Assembly (NCBI RefSeq): GCF_000733845.1
Contig: NZ_JPOI01000001.1
Coordinates: 1,527,501-1,591,500 of the forward strand
DNA from: Geobacillus vulcani PSS1
GTDB taxonomy: Bacteria; Bacillota; Bacilli; Bacillales; Anoxybacillaceae
Direction: 5' to 3'
DNA length: 64,000 nt
The notes beneath the pieces were generated by a model that saw only the letters and a list, made by a program, of their open reading frames with translations, was not told where the DNA came from and searched no databases. The first letter of the stretch is position 1. Every line of letters starts with the position of its first letter. Positions 8,114-59,830 of this stretch are shown here, in pieces. Made by a program: the position numbers and the translations under genes.

Positions 8114-8128
8114 TGATAAGGATTATCA
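8114..8128 (+). promoter_or_regulatory. Fur box
   Basis: TGATAAGGATTATCA matches the Bacillus 7-1-7 Fur consensus TGATAAT-N-ATTATCA at 13 of 14 defined positions. It lies just downstream of the promoter of the iron-siderophore operon, so iron repression is expected. Confidence 0.85.
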
Positions 8129-33551: not shown

Positions 33552-34688
33552 CTAAATGAGTTGTGGTTGGCGGAACGACTCTTTGCGGGAGATCATGCAA
33601 AAGATGATCACCAACATTCGTCGAGCCGTGGCGATGAGGGCTTTTTTCTTCCCGCATCGGGCCGCCAACGACCAAAATTTTCGGGACAAGGGATGTGTCT
33701 TGGATCGAGCTGCTGACCATGCCGCCTCGCATAACGCTGATCGAAGATGGGGATTGCCTTTGGTGGTGCGCGTGCTCTTTCGCTTTCCGGCGCTTTCATG
33801 GTTGCCGGGGGACAACCCCGTCCATGAAGCCGCCCGTTCCGGCGTTTCAAAGACGCTCATGTCGGTTCCCATCTCGGCGATGATGACGGCGGCGGTTTGT
33901 TTTTTGATTCCAGGCATGGTCATCAGTAAGTCCACTTCCTCCCGATACGGCTCGAGCAGGCGGTCGATGTGCTGGTCGACTTCTTCGATGAGCCGCTCGC
34001 ATTCCTCCACGTGTTTCCACAAGAGGCGAAGGAGACAGAGCTCATGTTCGGTCAAGGTGCCCAGCAGCGAATCGTACACCGCCTGCTTTTTCGTTTTGAG
34101 CCTGCCGCGCAGGCATTGATCCAGCTCGTCCTTGTCCACGTATCCCTTCTCGAGCAGCCGGGCAAGGATGTTTCGTCCGGAAACGCCGAAGAGATCCGAG
34201 AGGACGGAGCCCAGCTTGACATTGGAAGACTCCAGCACTTTTTGAATCCGGTTTTTCTCTGAACTCAACTGTCCGACCCACTTTTTGCGCAGGCGGGTAA
34301 AATCCCGCAGTTCACGAATCGGCGCTGGGGGGACGAAACTTTTTTCAATGAGTCCATGGCGGAGCAGCTTGGCGATCCACTCGGCGTCAGAGACATCGGT
34401 TTTTCTTCCCGGGACATTTTTGATCCGCTGCGGATTGGCCAAAGTCAAGTCGACATAGCCCTCGAGGAAGGCAAAGACCGGTTTCCAATACACGCCGGTG
34501 GATTCCATGGCGACATGGGTGACCCCATGGTCTTCGAGCCACTCGAGCAGGTCGCCAAGCCCTTTCGAGAACGTTGAGAACGTTTGGATCTCCTTTTGAA
34601 TCTCCCCCTCTTCTTCCCATAGGGCACAAGCGACAATAGTTTCGGTATGAACATCCAATCCTGCGCAGCGAGGATAGATGACATCCAT
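33552..34688 (-). CDS. IS110-family transposase (DEDD/serine recombinase type)
   Basis: A 378-residue recombinase of the IS110 family. The RuvC-like DEDD set is D12 in AGLDVHTETI, E62 in AMESTGVYW, and D98 and D101 in RKTDVSDAEW. A coiled-coil middle part follows, then the Transposase_20 domain with MPGIKKQTAAVIIAEMG and the nucleophile-type serine S299 in LSPGNHESAGKRKS. Such enzymes are guided by a bridge RNA made from the element's own noncoding end. The ATG at 34688 is preceded by AGGAGG nine bases away. The gene is full length and is inserted, in reverse, between menB and menE. Confidence 0.92.
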   Translation of the reverse strand: MDVIYPRCAGLDVHTETIVACALWEEEGEIQKEIQTFSTFSKGLGDLLEWLEDHGVTHVAMESTGVYWKPVFAFLEGYVDLTLANPQRIKNVPGRKTDVSDAEWIAKLLRHGLIEKSFVPPAPIRELRDFTRLRKKWVGQLSSEKNRIQKVLESSNVKLGSVLSDLFGVSGRNILARLLEKGYVDKDELDQCLRGRLKTKKQAVYDSLLGTLTEHELCLLRLLWKHVEECERLIEEVDQHIDRLLEPYREEVDLLMTMPGIKKQTAAVIIAEMGTDMSVFETPERAASWTGLSPGNHESAGKRKSTRTTKGNPHLRSALCEAAWSAARSKTHPLSRKFWSLAARCGKKKALIATARRMLVIIFCMISRKESFRQPQLI

Positions 34689-34860
34689 GATGAAACGCCT
34701 CCTTTTCGATGATGGAGTGCGCAAACAGCGAATCCACGGGAGACATGCGGCAGTTTTCCGTTCGTCGTCACCTTTCCTCTATCACAGGAAAGGGCGGACA
34801 ATGGGTGGTGCACCCAGTGGATTCAAACACTTTTCCGTACAGGGTCTAAGCCACCATTAA
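34689..34860 (-). ncRNA. Candidate bridge RNA region of the IS110 element
   Basis: In the IS110 group proper, the bridge RNA is encoded between the left end and the recombinase start codon. The equivalent stretch here is about 170 bases, read leftward. It folds readily: CTTTCCT pairs with AGGAAAG around GTGATAG at about 34772-34792, and ACTGGGTG lies beside CACCACCC further out. These could be the stem-loop and guide loops, but neither loop nor element border was proven. The coordinates are only an outer estimate. Confidence 0.45.
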
Positions 34861-37495: not shown

Positions 37496-37606
37496 GGTCA
37501 TCCCCCTTGTTGTGATGAAATCGCCCGCACCTATAGTTTGGTACACGCAAAGGAATTTATGAGCGGAGGAACGGAAAAGTAGAAGTGAGAATATGTATCA
37601 TTTTAA

Positions 37607-37636
37607 TTGACATAGAAAATCATTCTCAATTAAAAT
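37607..37636 (+). promoter_or_regulatory. Promoter of the DUF2325 gene with a Fur-like box
   Basis: TTGACA at 37607-37612 and TAAAAT at 37631-37636 are 18 bases apart. In the spacer, 37614-37628 read on the minus strand is TGAGAATGATTTTCT, which matches the 7-1-7 Fur consensus at 11 of 14 defined positions. Such a site would hide the promoter when iron is plentiful. Confidence 0.65.
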
Positions 37637-37672
37637 AAGAAAAGAAAGAAGCGAGCAAAGGAGGCTTTTGTG

Positions 37673-37945
37673 ATGGCATCACTGCTTGTTGTCGGAGCCG
37701 ATCATTTAGGCCATATTACCGATAAATTGGAGCGTTCCGGATTCCGGGAAATCATTCATCTTAACGGACGGAAAGTGAATATGGTGAAACGCGATATTCC
37801 GGAGCATGTCGACGCCATATTGGTCATGATCGATTACGTGAACCATAATTTGGCGAAGAAAGTGAAAGAAAAGGCGAAAAGCAAAGACAAGCCCATTTAT
37901 TTTGCAAAACGGTCATGGAGCTCGATTCACGCCGTATTGGAGTAG
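37673..37945 (+). CDS. DUF2325 domain protein, possibly iron-regulated
   Basis: A 90-residue protein (starts MASLLVVGADHLGHITDKL) that is one DUF2325 domain, with a Rossmann-like alternation of strands and helices. HLGHITDKLERSGFREIIHL and VMIDYVNHNLAKKVKEKAK are the family blocks. The function is unknown. AAAGGAGG is eight bases before the ATG at 37673; a GTG one codon earlier is possible. The promoter carries a Fur-like box. It is followed 35 bases later by another unknown gene, so the two probably form one transcript. Confidence 0.82.
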   Translation: MASLLVVGADHLGHITDKLERSGFREIIHLNGRKVNMVKRDIPEHVDAILVMIDYVNHNLAKKVKEKAKSKDKPIYFAKRSWSSIHAVLE

Positions 37946-37980
37946 CTTGAAAAACATGCATGAACAAAAGGAGGCGAGCC

Positions 37981-38469
37981 ATGGTGCCTATCCAGCACGA
38001 GACGTTGGACGTCTGGCCGCATGCGCTGCGCCGATTTCTCCGCTCCGTCCTGCAGACGTATTGTGAAACCGCTCCTTCGCTGCGGTCGCCGCTTTTCTTG
38101 CTGCGGCTGATTGATCAGCATCGTTCGCTCCTTCCTTTGTCGATGTTTCCGACGCCGCTGCATTACGGCCTTGTGTTGGCCAAGGTGACGGATCATTTGC
38201 TGCAGTTTTTCGGTTCAAGGGAAGAGGCGGCGTGCAAGCCGCTGTTGCTGGCGGACGGCGGATGGGGCGAAGAAGCGGACCGGGAGTTGTACATCGTTTA
38301 CCGCGATCGGGTTCGTGTGCTGCTATGGTGTGAGGAAGAGGAAGCGATTTGGCGCTGCAAAGAAACGGCGTCGTCCTTATGCCGCAAAGCGATCGGACAT
38401 TGTCCGAACGAACTGGAATGTTGCTTTTTATGGACGGGCGGACGCCGCATTGAGTGGATTCCCGCTTAA
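37981..38469 (+). CDS. Conserved-looking cytoplasmic protein, unknown
   Basis: A 162-residue protein with several cysteines and tryptophans, no signal peptide and no membrane helix. The first half is basic and helical (LRRFLRSVLQTYCETA); the second half is mixed (ELYIVYRDRVRVLLWCEEEEA). No family is recognised. AAGGAGGCG before the ATG at 37981 fixes the start. Its last codons (EWIPA and stop) are echoed 65 bases downstream by a partial copy. Sharing a probable Fur-controlled transcript with the DUF2325 gene suggests an iron-related setting. Confidence 0.65.
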   Translation: MVPIQHETLDVWPHALRRFLRSVLQTYCETAPSLRSPLFLLRLIDQHRSLLPLSMFPTPLHYGLVLAKVTDHLLQFFGSREEAACKPLLLADGGWGEEADRELYIVYRDRVRVLLWCEEEEAIWRCKETASSLCRKAIGHCPNELECCFLWTGGRRIEWIPA

Positions 38470-38529
38470 GGGAACGAGAAGAGGCATGAAAAGCGCCTTT
38501 CTCGGGCGTGTGATGGAATGGATTCCGGC

Positions 38530-38588
38530 TTGAATGAAGGGGATCGACGGCGTATAATGAAATAGGTTGAAAATGAAAATCGTTATTT
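38530..38588 (+). promoter_or_regulatory. Promoter of the 692-residue lipoprotein gene, with a weak Fur-like site
   Basis: TTGAAT at 38530-38535 and TATAAT at 38553-38558 are 17 bases apart. Downstream, 38574-38588 (TGAAAATCGTTATTT) matches the Fur 7-1-7 consensus at only 10 of 14 defined positions; chance cannot be excluded. Confidence 0.5.
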
Positions 38589-38612
38589 TTAAAGAAAATG
38601 GGGGAGCAAGCC

Positions 38613-40691
38613 ATGAAGCGCATGCCTTGGAAAGTGATGGCCACATCGGCGGCGGTGTCACTGCTATTGGCGTCCGGCTGTTCCGCCGTCGGGGAAAAAG
38701 AGAACAAACGTTCAGCGGAAGCGCCGCGTCTGCACGTGCCGGTAGCGGACGATCAGTTTGATACGGCCGGCAATATGTTTGCCTACTCGGAGTTTGAGCT
38801 TTCCGGCGAACCGTTGGCGGAAGGGCTCGGACTGGACTTGGATACGCTCGATGCAAGGAAACTTGACAAGCCGACGAAATTTGACTATACGGCCGGCATC
38901 GAGTCGTACGAGTATTCGGAAGAGGCGATGTACGAAGTCGTGGAAAAGTCCGGGCTCGGACTTCATCTTATTCACGGCCCGATCGCCAAAAAGCGCGCGG
39001 AACAACAGCAAAAGCCTGCCGATCAGGCGCTTGCCGACCGTTTTTATGAGCTTGCCGACAGCGTCGGCTATCCGCGTGAGGAAATTTTCCGCAACATGTT
39101 TCCGACATTCATTGAATATGCCGGCGGTGACCCGCATTATGCGCAAAAGGTCGACACGGACGTGTACGCGGAAAATGACGACGGCACATACGTTCCTGTC
39201 TATCAAGTCGATTTTCAATCGCTCCGTTGGGATCGCGGAAAAATGGAGAAAGTGCTCACGCCGGCAGCTTACGGCGGCGTCTTTTTGAAGCAGGCGCTTT
39301 GGGCTGGCGACTTTTTGGGCAATTTCCATCAAAAAGACAGTGACGAAGAAGTGGAAGCGAAAACGCCAAACGACGACCAAAGCGGGAACGTCGCTCTTGG
39401 TGTCAGCTCCGCCGACGGGCTGCAAGGGATGATTTTGACGGAACAAATATGGAACAAGCTCGCTTTCATCCGCGACCATTTGTTTTATGATGCGAAGCGA
39501 CAGGCGTTGACGAAAGCAGCGGGCAGCCGCTACAACCCAAGCGGCGGATTTGTCTATTTGCCGCATGCCGTGGAAGTGGCCGAAGGGGGAAGCGAGCGGG
39601 CGCCGGATGCGGCGAAGCTGGTCGTCAAAGATCCCCGCAGCTTGCTTGCGGATCAATGGCTGATGCTTTGGCCGGCGGCGGAGTTTTTCGGCATGACCGA
39701 CCAGCGTCCGGAAAACCAAAACCAAAATCCGGCGTTTTTGGCCGTGTTTGACGGAAGCCCGTTCCCGAAAGCGGCGAAGGAAAATGTGGATGCCGATCCA
39801 GCCAACGACCGCACGGCCGATGACCCGTATTCCGTCAACCGCGACGTGCTGCTGCAAGTGTTCCGCAACATCGATGCCATGCATTTCAATGAACAGGCGG
39901 GTGCGTTTGTGACCGAACATGACGGCCATGCGCAAGGAAAGCGGGTCGATACGTTCCACGCCGGTTATACGATGGAAGCGCTCCGCATTTTTGAGCGCGC
40001 CATTGATGGGCTGCCGGTCGGCTATGCGAGCGGCGAGAGCGCCAAAGGGCTTGGCACGCCGGAAGGAAAGCGGGCGCTTGAGATGATCCGCCGGCAAGCG
40101 AACTTTATCTTGAAACACTTGATGCGAAAAGACGGGCTGGTCGCCAACGGCTACACGATCGGCCAAGGGCCGGATCAAGAGGAGCCGACGCTGCTTGCCC
40201 AGCTTGGCGCCATCCGCGGGCTGACGGCGGCGTTTTTGGCGACGAAAAACGAAGCGTACCGCGATGCGGCGCGCCGTGTTTACGAGGCGATGGACCGCCA
40301 TTTTTGGGATGAAACATGGCATGTGTACCATACCGGCGAAAAAGAGGACAAGTACACCCCATGGCTCGCCGGCGCGTTGTCGGGCGTGTTCCGCGTCGCG
40401 CTGCAAAACTTGAACAACGACCAAGCCGGTGAGACGGCGAAATCATTGGAACGCGAAACGATCATCTCACGCTACGTCGACTTTTACGACCGGATCGTCG
40501 ACGGGCCGACGCTTTCCGAAGGGATGCAGGCGAGCGAGTTTTGGGATACGGGGGATGTGTACATCAAAGGGAAAACATTGGGCAACACCGACCGCGACCA
40601 TGTGCCGCAAGTGCAGTCAGCCGGCGGCAAATACGGCGTCGCGCCGGTGCTGCGGACGGTCAAAATCGAAGCCGGCTCCGGCAGCAACTAA
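38613..40691 (+). CDS. Large surface lipoprotein of unknown function
   Basis: A 692-residue lipoprotein: basic start, hydrophobic core, lipobox LLASGC with the lipidated Cys at 23. The mature part has no membrane helix. From about residue 400 on it is mainly helical, with repeated aromatic-rich helices (GYTMEALRIFERAIDG; EAYRDAARRVYEAMDRHFWD; WLAGALSGVFRVALQNL) that suggest an alpha/alpha toroid like those of six-hairpin glycosidases or epimerases. This is inference from pattern. No CxxCH and no catalytic signature was seen. GGGGGAG precedes the ATG at 38613. The following gene encodes a cytochrome-type lipoprotein on the same strand, so the two may act together outside the membrane. Confidence 0.7.
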   Translation: MKRMPWKVMATSAAVSLLLASGCSAVGEKENKRSAEAPRLHVPVADDQFDTAGNMFAYSEFELSGEPLAEGLGLDLDTLDARKLDKPTKFDYTAGIESYEYSEEAMYEVVEKSGLGLHLIHGPIAKKRAEQQQKPADQALADRFYELADSVGYPREEIFRNMFPTFIEYAGGDPHYAQKVDTDVYAENDDGTYVPVYQVDFQSLRWDRGKMEKVLTPAAYGGVFLKQALWAGDFLGNFHQKDSDEEVEAKTPNDDQSGNVALGVSSADGLQGMILTEQIWNKLAFIRDHLFYDAKRQALTKAAGSRYNPSGGFVYLPHAVEVAEGGSERAPDAAKLVVKDPRSLLADQWLMLWPAAEFFGMTDQRPENQNQNPAFLAVFDGSPFPKAAKENVDADPANDRTADDPYSVNRDVLLQVFRNIDAMHFNEQAGAFVTEHDGHAQGKRVDTFHAGYTMEALRIFERAIDGLPVGYASGESAKGLGTPEGKRALEMIRRQANFILKHLMRKDGLVANGYTIGQGPDQEEPTLLAQLGAIRGLTAAFLATKNEAYRDAARRVYEAMDRHFWDETWHVYHTGEKEDKYTPWLAGALSGVFRVALQNLNNDQAGETAKSLERETIISRYVDFYDRIVDGPTLSEGMQASEFWDTGDVYIKGKTLGNTDRDHVPQVQSAGGKYGVAPVLRTVKIEAGSGSN

Positions 40692-40699
40692 CAGGAACG

Positions 40700-40736
40700 A
40701 AAAGCGGCGAATGCGATTGAGATTCGCCGCTTTTCT
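40700..40736 (+). terminator. Terminator of the 692-residue lipoprotein gene
   Basis: AAAAGCGGCGAAT pairs with ATTCGCCGCTTTT around a 9-base loop, followed by CTTTG. Confidence 0.85.
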
Positions 40737-40745
40737 TTGTAAAAT

Positions 40746-40760
40746 TGAGGATGGTTATCA
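40746..40760 (+). promoter_or_regulatory. Possible Fur box
   Basis: TGAGGATGGTTATCA matches the 7-1-7 consensus TGATAAT-N-ATTATCA at 11 of 14 defined positions. It lies 28 bases before the start of the cytochrome lipoprotein gene. Confidence 0.5.
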
Positions 40761-40787
40761 TTTTCGTAAAAAAACGGGGGAATGGAA

Positions 40788-42746
40788 ATGCGCACATGGT
40801 GGTTCGCCGTGGCGGCGGCCGTCTTATTGGCCGGCTGCCAGGCCGAGAAAGCGTGGCAAGAAAAGCCGAAAACGACAAGACACGCCCCGGCGCACGGCGA
40901 CAACATCGCCATCAGCAGCGACGGACGCTATGTCTACACCGCCAACATTGACGTCGATACGGTGACGGTCGTCAACACGAAAACAAAGAAGAAGGAGGCG
41001 GAGATTCCCGTCGGCCGCGAACCGCGCCAACTCGCGCTCAGCCCGGATGGACGGACGCTGTATGTTTCCTGCATGTATGATGATGAAGTGGACGTGGTGT
41101 CGCTTGCCAAGCGGAAAGTCATTGATCGTTGGAAAACGGGCATCGAGCCGTTCGGCATCGTCACCAGCCCCGACGGGACGGAAGTCTACGTAGCCAACTA
41201 CCGCTCGGGCACGGTCTCGGTGTTTGACGCCGAGAGCGGGAAGCGAATCAAAGACATCCAAGCGGGGGACCGCCCGCGGGCGCTGGCGCTGACAGCGGAC
41301 GGAAGGAAGCTGTACGTGACGCAATATTTGGCCGCGAAAGTCACCGTGATTGACGCGAAAAAACGGAAGGTCATCAAGGAAATCGCCCTCGCCCCGTCGC
41401 CGGATCAAGCCGACCGGAAAAAAAGCCAAGGCCTCCCGAACACACTCGAGCAAATCGTCATCGCGCCGGACGGGAAGAAGGCGTACGTTCCGCATTTATT
41501 GACGAATGTCGACACGCCGATTCAATTTGAGGAAACGGTGTTTCCGGCCATTTCGGTCATTGATGTGACGAACGACGTTGAGTTGAGGGACGAGCGGAAA
41601 GAGCTGTTTGCTGCCATCAATGTCACCGATGTCCATAACGAGACGATCATCGTCTCCAATCCGTACGATGTGGCGTTTTCGCCGGACGGCGGCAAAGCGT
41701 ACGCGGTCATGTCCGGCAGCGAGGATCTCGTCGTCTTCGACTTGCGCCGCGGCGGCAAGGCGACGCAAATTTTGCGCCGCATCCACGGCAACAATCCGCG
41801 CGGGGTGGCGATCTCGCCTGCGGGAAACGTCTTGTACGTCCACAACGCCATGAGCCATGATGTCGCGGTGATCAACACCGGCGGGAAAAGCCCGTATGCG
41901 AAAGCGAAGCAGGAAGACGGCACGATCCGCCTCATTGCCAAAGATTCGCTCTCCCCGCTCGTGCGCGAAGGGAAAACGATCTTTTACAGCGCAAACAGCG
42001 ACGAATTTGCCATCAATATAACAGGTAATAACTGGATGAGCTGCGCGTCGTGCCATAGCGACGGCGACATCAACGGCTTGACGCTCATGACGGCGAAAGG
42101 GCCGCGCAACGTGCCGAGCAACATTTTGGCGACGAAAACGGGGTTGTTTATGTGGGACGGCTCGCGCGACGATTTTACCGACTATATTCATACGGTGCAA
42201 GGTGAGATGGGCGGCATGACGGCGATCGACCCGTCCAAGCCGCTGCCGCCGAAAGTCCAGCATATGTTTGACGCCATGCTCGCCTACTTGAATGACCCCC
42301 GCTCCTTCCCGGTGCCGAAAAGCCCGTACCGAAAGGCGGACGGCCGCTTGACGGAGGAAGCGCAGGAAGGGGAGCGGCTCTTTAACGGGAAAGGGAATTG
42401 CTTACGCTGCCATGGGGGCGAATATTTCACCGACAGCGTCAAAGCGGTCGGGCCGGACGGCAAATTGACGACCGCCAATACCGCTTATTTGCATGATATC
42501 GGCACGGCCAACCCGAAGGACCGCGCCTCCCAAGGCGACGCCCGCGCCCGGTTCACAAACCCGCGGACGCCGAAGCAGTGGGATACGCCAACGCTGCGCG
42601 GCGTCTGGGCGACCGCTCCGTATTTGCATGACGGCAGCGCGAAAACGATCGAGGAAGCGATCCGCCGCCATCGGACGAAAGAAGTGTCGACGTTGACCCC
42701 GGGGGAAATCGCGGCGATCGCCGCCTACGTCCGCTCGTTGCAATAA
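40788..42746 (+). CDS. Beta-propeller / di-haem cytochrome c lipoprotein
   Basis: A 652-residue surface lipoprotein (lipobox VLLAGC) of two parts. Residues about 30-390 are YVTN/YncE-like propeller blades, e.g. VYVANYRSGTVSVFDAESGK and LYVTQYLAAKVTVIDAKKRK. Residues about 400-652 resemble MauG/di-haem cytochrome c peroxidase, with haem motifs CASCH at 419-423 and CLRCH at 538-542 and a late TPTLRGVWATAPYLHDGS block typical of that fold. Such domains oxidise or reduce substrates outside the cell; the substrate is unknown. CGGGGG before the second ATG (40788) decides the start. It could supply or accept electrons for an iron or quinone pathway; that is inference. Confidence 0.8.
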   Translation: MRTWWFAVAAAVLLAGCQAEKAWQEKPKTTRHAPAHGDNIAISSDGRYVYTANIDVDTVTVVNTKTKKKEAEIPVGREPRQLALSPDGRTLYVSCMYDDEVDVVSLAKRKVIDRWKTGIEPFGIVTSPDGTEVYVANYRSGTVSVFDAESGKRIKDIQAGDRPRALALTADGRKLYVTQYLAAKVTVIDAKKRKVIKEIALAPSPDQADRKKSQGLPNTLEQIVIAPDGKKAYVPHLLTNVDTPIQFEETVFPAISVIDVTNDVELRDERKELFAAINVTDVHNETIIVSNPYDVAFSPDGGKAYAVMSGSEDLVVFDLRRGGKATQILRRIHGNNPRGVAISPAGNVLYVHNAMSHDVAVINTGGKSPYAKAKQEDGTIRLIAKDSLSPLVREGKTIFYSANSDEFAINITGNNWMSCASCHSDGDINGLTLMTAKGPRNVPSNILATKTGLFMWDGSRDDFTDYIHTVQGEMGGMTAIDPSKPLPPKVQHMFDAMLAYLNDPRSFPVPKSPYRKADGRLTEEAQEGERLFNGKGNCLRCHGGEYFTDSVKAVGPDGKLTTANTAYLHDIGTANPKDRASQGDARARFTNPRTPKQWDTPTLRGVWATAPYLHDGSAKTIEEAIRRHRTKEVSTLTPGEIAAIAAYVRSLQ

Positions 42747-42810: not shown

Positions 42811-42849
42811 GGGAAAAGGCGCCCCTAGCTGTGTGGAGCGCCTTTTCCC
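42811..42849. terminator. Terminator between the cytochrome lipoprotein gene and cydB
   Basis: GGGAAAAGGCGC pairs perfectly with GCGCCTTTTCCC around a 15-base loop. It can serve the leftward cydAB transcript and the rightward cytochrome gene. Confidence 0.7.
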
Positions 42850-42971
42850 ATTTATTTTGGCCGCGCATTTTCTGTCTTTTCTCCATTTATTTTGGCCGCG
42901 CATTTTCTGTCTTTTCTCCATTTATTTTGGCCGCGCATTTTCTGTCTTTTCTCCATTTATTTTGGCCGCAC
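42848..42971. repeat. Tandem 35-base repeat made from the 3' end of cydB
   Basis: The unit CCATTTATTTTGGCCGCGCA + TTTTCTGTCTTTTCT starts at 42848, 42883 and 42918, with a partial fourth copy at 42953-42971 that contains the real cydB stop codon. On the minus strand each copy repeats the coding end GGCCAAAATAA. Confidence 0.85.
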
Positions 42972-43991
42972 ATAGCGTTTGTCGTGCATGAACAGCCGCC
43001 AGAAATAGACGAAGCCCGGAAACAAAATCAGGAAGCCGATGATGTAGGAGACAAACAGCGCCCGGAATGTGTCCGGATGGGTAAAGGCCGACTCGATCGT
43101 CACATCCGGATATACCATATAGGGCAGATGGGCTTTTCCATAGGCGTAACTGGCGAGAAAATACTGAATGACAATCGCAACGACCGCCAACCGCGGCCGC
43201 CCCCGCACGCCCGGATGCTTCGCCGACGGCAGCAGCAACGCCATGCCCGCGGCGGCGAACATCGCTACCGAGCCGGCGAGCCAAGGCCAATACTCCATCA
43301 TGTTGTCATACAGCCATGCCGCTTCGTTGTGCATCGTCAACATCATGCCTGCGGCCATCAGCAGCGAAATCGGCCCGGTAATCCAAGCGTCGCGCCGATA
43401 CAGGCGGTAGGCTTCCCGATCTCCGGCTTCGAGCGAGTAGTCCGCCAATAAAAGAGAGGAGAGAAACAGCGTGCTCGAAATCGCAAAGCCCATAAAGGAA
43501 TAGGCGTGGGGGCTGGTAAAAAAGCGTTTCAAATTGAGCGTCGGAACGCCCTCATCGACCTCGATGAACGTTCCATGCGTGATCGGCAGCACGCTGATGA
43601 GCAGAGCCGGGATGATGATGCCGGTGAGGCCGGAAATATAGGTGAGCGCTTTTTCATATTCTTTCGCCACGTGGGCAAAGACCAAGAAAGCGCTGCGGAT
43701 GGCGAGCAAGATCAAAATGATGCTGCCGGGGACAAGCAGCACCGTCCCGAGCAGGAAGGCGGCGCCGGGAAAAAAGCTGAACAAGGCGACGACAATGGCG
43801 ACGATAAAGACATTGGTCACCTCCCAGGTGGGCGATAAATAGCGGTTGGCAATCTTCGTGGCGTTCGCTTTGTCGCGATGGATGTAGATCATCGACCAAA
43901 ACCCGGCGCCAAAATCCATCGTCGCCATAACCGCATAGATGAAAATAAATCCCCACAGCACCGAAACAGCGATCAACTCGTTTGTCATCAA
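42957..43991 (-). CDS. cydB: Cytochrome bd oxidase subunit II
   Basis: The 344-residue second subunit of a bd-type quinol oxidase, a membrane protein with about nine helices. SVLWGFIFIYAVMATMDFGA at the N-terminus is typical, as are YLSPTWEVTNVFI and FTSPHAYSFMGFAISSTLFL. It stabilises the haem-bearing subunit CydA, whose gene lies 143 bases upstream on the same strand. The extreme 3' end has been copied as a tandem repeat beyond the stop codon. It corresponds to B. subtilis YthB. Confidence 0.9.
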   Translation of the reverse strand: MMTNELIAVSVLWGFIFIYAVMATMDFGAGFWSMIYIHRDKANATKIANRYLSPTWEVTNVFIVAIVVALFSFFPGAAFLLGTVLLVPGSIILILLAIRSAFLVFAHVAKEYEKALTYISGLTGIIIPALLISVLPITHGTFIEVDEGVPTLNLKRFFTSPHAYSFMGFAISSTLFLSSLLLADYSLEAGDREAYRLYRRDAWITGPISLLMAAGMMLTMHNEAAWLYDNMMEYWPWLAGSVAMFAAAGMALLLPSAKHPGVRGRPRLAVVAIVIQYFLASYAYGKAHLPYMVYPDVTIESAFTHPDTFRALFVSYIIGFLILFPGFVYFWRLFMHDKRYVRPK

Positions 43992-59652: not shown

Positions 59653-59830
59653 ACTCTTATCCCGAGCCGGCGGAGGGACAGGCCCGATGAAGCCCAGCAA
59701 CCGTCACAACTGTACATGTGTGAAATGGTGCTAACCTGTGGCAAGGCGCAGTCCTTGAACGATAAGAGTGAAAGGAAGCAATACGATTGCCATGACCTTT
59801 CCTCAGCCGTTACAGGAAAGGTTTTTTATA
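59653..59830 (+). ncRNA. SAM-I (S-box) riboswitch with terminator
   Basis: The S-box core is clear: TTATCCCGAGCCGGCGGAGG, then GACAGGCCCGATGAAGCCC and AGCAACC, then GGTGCTAA. P1 is ACTCTTATC (59653-59661) with GATAAGAGT (59761-59769). The terminator is ACCTTTCCT (59795) with AGGAAAGGT, followed by six T. SAM binding would hold P1 closed and let the terminator form, stopping metK expression. Confidence 0.95.

Follow-up and report, generated by a model that had tools for sequence, protein, structure and literature searches.

The 64,000-nucleotide stretch of Geobacillus vulcani PSS1 analyzed here (contig NZ_JPOI01000001.1, positions 1,527,501 to 1,591,500; hereafter the window) carries, on its plus strand between 37.5 and 42.8 kb, four genes, the last two of which encode predicted lipoproteins of 692 and 652 residues. 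These two lipoproteins are one unit, and we tentatively propose that they serve an iron permease of the FTR1/EfeU type whose gene lies elsewhere in the genome, which is a single contig of 3.39 Mb and whose nearest loci, in a relatives search with the 692-residue protein, were from Geobacillus. A preliminary description of this DNA had placed all four genes in one iron-controlled group.

Organization of the locus

Three promoters define the transcription layout of the region: the first serves the DUF2325 gene and a gene for a 162-residue protein, the second serves the 692 gene, and the third serves the 652 gene. The features are as follows.

37607..37636, plus strand: promoter of the DUF2325 unit, TTGACA-18-TAAAAT (consensus scan, 11/12)
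37609..37627, plus strand: Fur-like site within the DUF2325 promoter (14/19, reached by 13/1000 shuffles)
37673..37945, plus strand: gene of the DUF2325 protein, 90 residues (PF10087, 60.6 bits against a cut-off of 33.6)
37981..38469, plus strand: gene of the 162-residue protein (no Pfam match; a slightly longer reading was searched)
38530..38558, plus strand: promoter of the 692 gene, TTGAAT-17-TATAAT (consensus scan, 10/12)
38569..38587, plus strand: Fur-like 19-mer GAAAATGAAAATCGTTATT, 10 bp past the -10 element of the 692 promoter (15/19, 0/1000 shuffles)
38613..40691, plus strand: gene of the 692-residue lipoprotein, for which an (alpha/alpha)6 barrel with large inserts, resembling sugar epimerases and GH105, is predicted
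40717..40745, plus strand: promoter of the 652 gene, TTGAGA-17-TAAAAT (consensus scan, 10/12)
40746..40765, plus strand: second Fur box, between the 692 and 652 genes (15/19, 1/1000 shuffles; 11/14)
40788..42746, plus strand: gene of the 652-residue lipoprotein, YVTN propeller plus MauG/CCP-like di-heme domain (family matches, PDB matches, model)
42042..42056, plus strand: first CxxCH (CASCH) in the di-heme domain of the 652 protein; C419, C422, and H423 invariant in alignment A2
42399..42413, plus strand: second CxxCH (CLRCH) in the same domain; C538, C541, and H542 invariant in alignment A2

The 19-bp sites were scored against what we take to be the classical Fur box (the other Fur consensus strings used below are likewise our assumption), and their significance comes from 1000 mononucleotide shuffles per site. 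The stretch holds 6 promoter-like sites, against a mean of 2.6 in shuffles. The three 15-mers previously described as Fur-like (37614-37628, 38574-38588, and 40746-40760) lie exactly where they had been placed, with 11, 10, and 11 of 14 matches, and every site is inside, or at most 15 bp past, a sigma-A-like promoter, so that their reported proximity to promoters holds as well; an additional 15-mer (11/14) lies upstream of DUF2325 at 37586-37600. For the operator of the 692 gene, the 19-mer at 38569-38587, which overlaps the 15-mer at 38574-38588 (10/14), appears to be the better reading. The identity given earlier to the DUF2325 protein, whose score is above the Pfam cut-off, was confirmed.

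The two lipoproteins form a unit

In an order-level sample of 219 genomes, the 692 and 652 families occurred in the same 22 genomes, from 14 genera, and were adjacent every time. Among 41 relatives, the 692 protein was present in 15 and a 652 orthologue adjoined it in the same 15. We also collected 80 loci, the best 80 of 171 relatives found through the 692 protein, some of which share species with genomes of the other samples; a 652 homologue directly follows the 692 gene in 62/62 of the Bacillota loci, which range from Geobacillus to Paenibacillus and Tumebacillus, and the gap is within about 45 bp in 43 of the 60 loci where it was computed, intergenic lengths being approximate. Pairwise distances within the two families correlate (Pearson 0.92, 50 loci). 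The joint action suggested earlier for the two lipoproteins is therefore supported, since both families occupy the same genomes and are always adjacent, and that idea survived examination of both co-occurrence and site conservation, independent occurrence and unconserved sites having been named as what would speak against it. A phylum-wide sample of 348 genomes, in which 2 genomes had the 692 protein (the window genome being one of them), was too broad to be informative.

In two further genomes (G001 and G002; loci L126 and L128), the pair has decayed to a C-terminal remnant of the 652 gene near an open DUF2325 frame, which shows its loss within the genus. A gene for a DoxX-like membrane protein (under the Pfam cut-off) precedes the pair in L045, L046, L047, L050, L053, and L089, either directly or with one small open reading frame (ORF) between, and beyond it L045-L047 carry a divergent pair of response-regulator and kinase genes, recognized by eye.

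The proposed four-gene system was not supported, because the pair occurs without a DUF2325 match in the fetched flanks of 48 of the 62 Bacillota loci, and DUF2325 is found in 33 of the 41 relatives while the pair is in just 15. Each of the 14 loci with a match bears the title Geobacillus, Parageobacillus, or Anoxybacillus, and 13 of them also gave a match to the 162-residue gene. DUF2325 adjoins the pair in G033 too; there (L127 6848-7920) it lies beside the gene of a 273-residue protein, the middle part of which resembles the 162-residue protein (29% identity over 138 columns, BLASTP E 4e-12) and which itself has a weak likeness to PDDEXK_1 (E 0.28). The Fur-like site upstream of DUF2325 is conserved, with a best 15-mer of 11-13/14 in the 14 loci and 12/14 in G033. 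This conservation, and the adjacency in these loci, leave a very small chance that the four genes form one iron-controlled group; because the linkage is local, we set the group aside. DUF2325 is probably a neighbor outside the conserved pair, and DUF2325 and the 162-residue gene are, judged by gene order, local neighbors of it.

Conservation of the Fur boxes

Comparing the 250 bp upstream of the 692 gene with TGATAATNATTATCA, we found a best 15-mer of at least 12/14 in 42 of the 62 Bacillota loci (perfect in 10 of the 62). Of 536 control regions, taken ahead of the other ORFs of these loci, 7 scored as high; of these 7, four are in L045-L047 upstream of genes neighboring the pair, and they may share the pair's box. 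Among the 18 proteobacterial loci, at least 12/14 was reached upstream of the 692 homologue in 4, against 1 of 179 controls. Twelve of the 14 Geobacillus, Parageobacillus, and Anoxybacillus loci have a box of 11-13/14 in the roughly 75-105 bp that separate the 692 and 652 genes; most other Bacillota have a short gap there, and their box is the one ahead of the 692 gene. Within Geobacillus itself, the 15-mer before the 692 gene is weak (10/14 in the window; 8-10/14 in L035-L038 and L077, scores that 8 to 82% of the shuffles of those loci reach). These boxes support the iron control proposed earlier, and because strong ones occur in the other Bacillota, the evidence from conservation for Fur control of the pair is convincing.

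As a positive control, a 13/14 Fur box was recovered at window positions 8114-8128, 34 bp ahead of a gene for a PF01497 binding protein. This family is given under iron-siderophore uptake in PMC13068155 (here and below, articles cited by PMC number are represented by extracts).

Linkage to the FTR1 iron permease

The 692 family extends, among the best 80 of the 171 relatives, to alpha- and gammaproteobacteria at 42-45% identity. At the 18 proteobacterial loci, a propeller homologue lies nearby in 14 and a protein family we call c11 in 14; two further families, c22 and c23, are each present in 9, a flavoprotein (NF005547 in L104) in 9, and an FTR1/EfeU permease in 6 (in L104, PF03239 at 149.9 bits against a cut-off of 25.3). 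Because several of these contigs end early (L097, L101, and L112), the counts are lower bounds. FTR1 and c22, where present, are clustered on the same strand as the pair's homologues. c11 is by eye a small, multi-helix membrane protein (DUF4405, 15.9 against 26.7 bits); it is fused to the propeller protein in L100 and, from length and positions, apparently in L106 as well.

The window genome has its own FTR1 locus at about 1.775 Mb of its contig (L125), with the order c22, FTR1, c23 (L125 3379-6627; genome positions 1774878-1778126), and these proteins share 25, 37, and 28% identity with their Photobacterium counterparts. The cluster lies behind TGATAATGATTATCA, the sole zero-mismatch Fur site of the genome, in a scan that returned 23 sites with at most 2 mismatches against 8 for a reversed control. 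All 40 loci sampled from other genomes (L136-L175; the pair is present in 21 of these genomes and missing from 19) keep this gene order, and a 14/14 Fur box lies near the c22 start in 37 of these 40, the other three scoring 11, 13, and 13.

Among the 219 genomes, FTR1 was present in 92 and c22 in 61. FTR1 (PF03239) was found in 22/22 pair genomes and in 70/197 others (p about 1e-9), and c22 in 22/22 and in 39/197 (p about 2e-14); these co-occurrence statistics ignore kinship. All 22 pair genomes carry both, so that in this sample the pair occurs only within the c22-FTR1 genomes. The preliminary description had guessed at an iron complex or a quinol as the substrate; the link to the FTR1 permease takes the place of that guess, with iron as the probable substrate.

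The EfeB-type DyP peroxidase (PF04261) was found in 27 of the 219 genomes and in 0/22 pair genomes. We considered this absence as proof that the pair replaces EfeB and dropped the argument, since DyP goes with another FTR1 subtype (it is present in 24 of the 31 FTR1 genomes lacking c22) and its exclusion by the pair within the c22 set is not significant. Because of that subtype association, and because many c22 genomes have neither the pair nor DyP, the absence is consistent with replacement and no proof of it. The c22 protein has a weak imelysin likeness (PF09375, 18.7 against 23.5 bits; matches at E<=0.1 in 8 of 32 members), and a sequence search of the PDB gave no convincing relatives; c22 as a proven EfeO was set aside, the matches being below threshold.

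Upstream of the c22-FTR1 cluster in L125 are LPG_synthase_TM and phosphodiesterase-like genes (Pfam) and a GT2-like gene (by eye), and genes of similar size precede the cluster in most of the other sampled loci. c23 resembles TMEM260-like transferases, under the cut-off only.

Protein domains of the pair

The domain counts below depend on ORFs picked by a simple longest-first script, whose drop-outs are probably wrong-frame picks; they took in the window plus 57 of the 62 Bacillota loci for the 652 family and the window plus 51 for the 692 family, and 13 and 17, respectively, of the 18 proteobacterial loci. The lipoboxes reported earlier were found by a loose pattern in the first 70 residues not only of the window proteins but of most Bacillota members: 51/52 ORFs of the 692 family and 50/58 of the 652 family, window included.

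The 692 protein matched no Pfam or NCBIfam family at E<=0.1, sugar 2-epimerase/GH105 profiles and any MbnP-type partner included. Structure prediction returned an (alpha/alpha)6 barrel, a fold shared with sugar epimerases and with GH105/GH76, which agrees with the toroid suggested earlier. Weak family signals come from one homologue (GH88, 21.6 against 26.6 bits) and from a profile comparison with 5zhb_A (E 0.029). Because the FTR1 locus has glycan-type neighbors (including c23) and the toroid has a sugar-enzyme fold, we allow a distinctly small chance that the substrate or ligand of the toroid is an envelope glycan, the product of the FTR1-linked glycan genes, in which case the iron control would reflect surface remodeling or glycan-bound iron instead of redox iron import. 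No glycosidase or epimerase family was above its cut-off, and an obligate heme partner together with a Fur box suggests redox chemistry and iron instead.

All the features ascribed earlier to the 652 protein were recovered: YVTN propeller repeats, a PF03150 CCP_MauG domain above its cut-off (29.7 against 25.6 bits), and two CxxCH motifs. In Bacillota, 58/58 ORFs of the family have 2 CxxCH plus WDG[ST]R, QxEMG, and PYxHDG, the Trp and Gln/Glu motifs presumably having the roles that such residues have in MauG/CCP proteins. The proteobacterial propeller homologues (n=13) have 6 CxxCH in 12 cases and 2 in one, and WDG[ST]R, QxEMG, or PYxHDG in none. The propeller core is retained while the heme head changes between the two phyla. 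Since none of the 13 proteobacterial homologues examined has these motifs, we rejected peroxide chemistry as an activity common to both phyla. The structural model has low pLDDT (predicted confidence) in the heme region, and its structural comparison rows span the propeller only (residues 38-368).

The best PDB matches for the two halves of the 652 protein are hydrazine synthase beta and gamma. The NCBIfam cut-offs for this enzyme were far from reached (NF052342, 117.8 against 1250 bits; beta, 112.3 against 560; gamma, 51.5 against 625), as was that for NosZ (85.3 against 700 bits), and we rejected membership of the 652 protein in either family. That the 652 protein is related to copper or nitrogen oxides, a speculation made about the Parageobacillus thermoglucosidasius homologue (below), or that it has a hydrazine-synthase-like activity has hardly any chance given these scores, the iron control, and the FTR1 link.

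Strict one-to-one pairing is also what one would expect if the 652 protein were a MauG/MbnH-like modifier and the 692 protein its dedicated substrate, with Trp/Tyr residues oxidized into a metal-binding or redox site. The 692 family does have Trp/Tyr residues conserved across both phyla (W206, W230, W353, and others), and the 652 protein shows an MbnH-like similarity (TIGR04039, 62.3 bits). That score is well under the MbnH cut-off of 362.85 bits, and the MauG motifs are absent from the 13 proteobacterial partners examined, which nevertheless accompany the same toroid family, so we consider such a modification quite unlikely.

Proposed role of the pair

We propose that the 692 and 652 proteins may form a Fur-repressed surface redox unit that oxidizes Fe(II) for the FTR1/EfeU-type permease, a proposal to which we give somewhat less than an even chance. 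Iron scarcity would derepress both the pair locus and the c22-FTR1 locus; the toroid lipoprotein and the propeller would bind or position iron near FTR1, where the heme domain would oxidize Fe(II). In Bacillota, peroxide would probably be used at the MauG/CCP-like di-heme site, and in Proteobacteria, electrons would travel via the hexaheme chain and the small membrane protein toward the quinone pool. Fe(III) would then be passed through c22 to FTR1. The pairing, the conserved Fur boxes, the linkage and nesting with c22-FTR1, the absence of EfeB, and the two alternative heme heads are computed results; we infer iron as the substrate, oxidation over reduction, peroxide or quinone as the acceptor, and what the toroid and c22 do. 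A redox head for FTR1 import is the best reading, with Fet3-Ftr1 and YwbN-YwbL as analogies; YwbN was proposed to oxidize Fe2+ for YwbL in Bacillus subtilis (PMC3068169).

A unit that instead reduces or breaks ferric complexes or heme, freeing iron for uptake by FTR1, is unlikely in our judgment, and several observations point its way. The hexaheme chain with c11, found in 14 of the 18 proteobacterial loci and fused in some, would be suitable for a reductase driven by quinol. In proteoliposomes, EfeU transported Fe2+, and EfeB is able to take iron from heme (both PMC3068169). The intact CCP/MauG-type motifs of the Bacillota proteins better fit a peroxidase that consumes electrons, and none of the 62 Bacillota loci gave a match to c11. 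We prefer the oxidative direction because the Bacillota head keeps these peroxidase-type residues.

A number of results weigh against an oxidizing unit that serves FTR1. The multiheme version with its membrane protein could equally run as a reductase, and EfeB is assumed to turn ferric into ferrous iron (PMC3143127). Neither FTR1 nor c22 was matched beside the pair in any of the 62 Bacillota loci, 9 of the 18 proteobacterial loci show no c22, and 4 of the 18 have the toroid without a propeller match nearby (Aeromonas L101, L111, and L113; Oceanospirillales L108). One pair genome, G022, shows no FTR1, so that 14/15 pair genomes of the 41-genome sample, and 30/31 over both samples, have it; in G022 the 652 gene is read without its beginning, because the match begins at residue 67 and the same strain's locus shows a second, separate match. 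The pair and DyP are both missing from 36 of the 61 c22-FTR1 genomes, so FTR1 can do without either, and the mutual exclusion of the pair and DyP inside the c22 set has a p of 0.55. The glycan-looking genes at the FTR1 locus are left unexplained by a redox function.

Other features of the window

Window positions 42842-42973, which follow shortly after the 652 gene, contain a 35-bp repeat (3.8 copies, 97%) at the 3' end of an opposite-strand gene for cytochrome bd subunit II. An IS110-family transposase gene is on the minus strand at 33552-34724, upstream of menE, and a SAM riboswitch is on the plus strand at 59654-59768.

Comparison with known systems

Extracts of PMC13068155 mention, separately, two P. 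thermoglucosidasius proteins that we take to be homologues of the 652 and 692 proteins from their description, length, and neighboring locus numbers: AOT13_18635, a lipoprotein with a propeller and a peroxidase domain that is perhaps a copper recipient, and AOT13_18640, a lipoprotein that the type strain has in truncated form and of which proteomics in LB detected the N-terminal part. Among the matches listed in our literature search, no paper joined the two proteins, Fur, and FTR1 or described the pair as an iron-controlled unit, and the extracts of PMC5511505 contained nothing on the pair. The link of the pair to FTR1 and c22 in Proteobacteria and its nesting with c22-FTR1 are new. They bear on how iron movement by FTR1 is coupled to electron transfer and on what stands in where EfeB is missing; the pair is a candidate made of two proteins, for which tractable thermophiles offer a clean genetic prediction, and the 692 family, a large conserved family matching no Pfam model, now has a proposed function.

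EfeUOB/YwbLMN combines an FTR1 permease, the imelysin EfeO, and the DyP heme peroxidase EfeB, and resembles the present arrangement in its permease, in its extracytoplasmic partners that include a peroxidase-type heme protein, and in its iron control. It differs in that the pair genomes lack DyP, the heme part of the pair is a propeller plus a c-type di-heme domain, and its partner is a toroid lipoprotein; moreover, Bacillota have two separate loci, and c22 is only weakly imelysin-like. In Ftr1-Fet3 and FTR1-P19, the same logic of a permease with an extracytoplasmic redox partner (PMC9174327) is implemented by copper-site proteins, whereas the pair uses c-type heme.

Imelysin operons with a di-heme DUF1111 protein (IrpA/ICMP, for example PA4370-PA4373) likewise place a Fur-regulated di-heme protein beside a helical extracytoplasmic protein (PMC3143127), while the pair has a different di-heme family and a different helical partner. 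In the same extracts, EfeU is absent from the imelysin operons for putative outer-membrane clusters. With MauG, MbnH, and bacterial di-heme CCP (PF03150), the Bacillota 652 protein shares two CxxCH motifs, WDG, QxEM, and PYxHDG; it differs in being fused to a propeller and lipid-anchored, and the motifs are absent in the proteobacterial homologues examined.

The beta and gamma subunits of hydrazine synthase, fused in some anammox bacteria (NF052342), have the same domain order as the 652 protein, propeller and then di-heme. The 652 protein differs by lying far under those family cut-offs, by its iron control, and by its toroid partner. Beta-gamma homologues of hydrazine synthase have been reported in Bacillus with no role assigned (PMC12758564), and such relatives now gain an iron-uptake setting. 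The pair may belong to a new redox family of FTR1 importers with a toroid and propeller core and exchangeable heme heads (di-heme with peroxide in Bacillota, hexaheme with quinone in Proteobacteria), a generalization that is conceivable and on balance doubtful; because its propeller protein is a beta-gamma relative, an iron-handling protein may be the ancestor of hydrazine synthase or have an ancestor in common with it.

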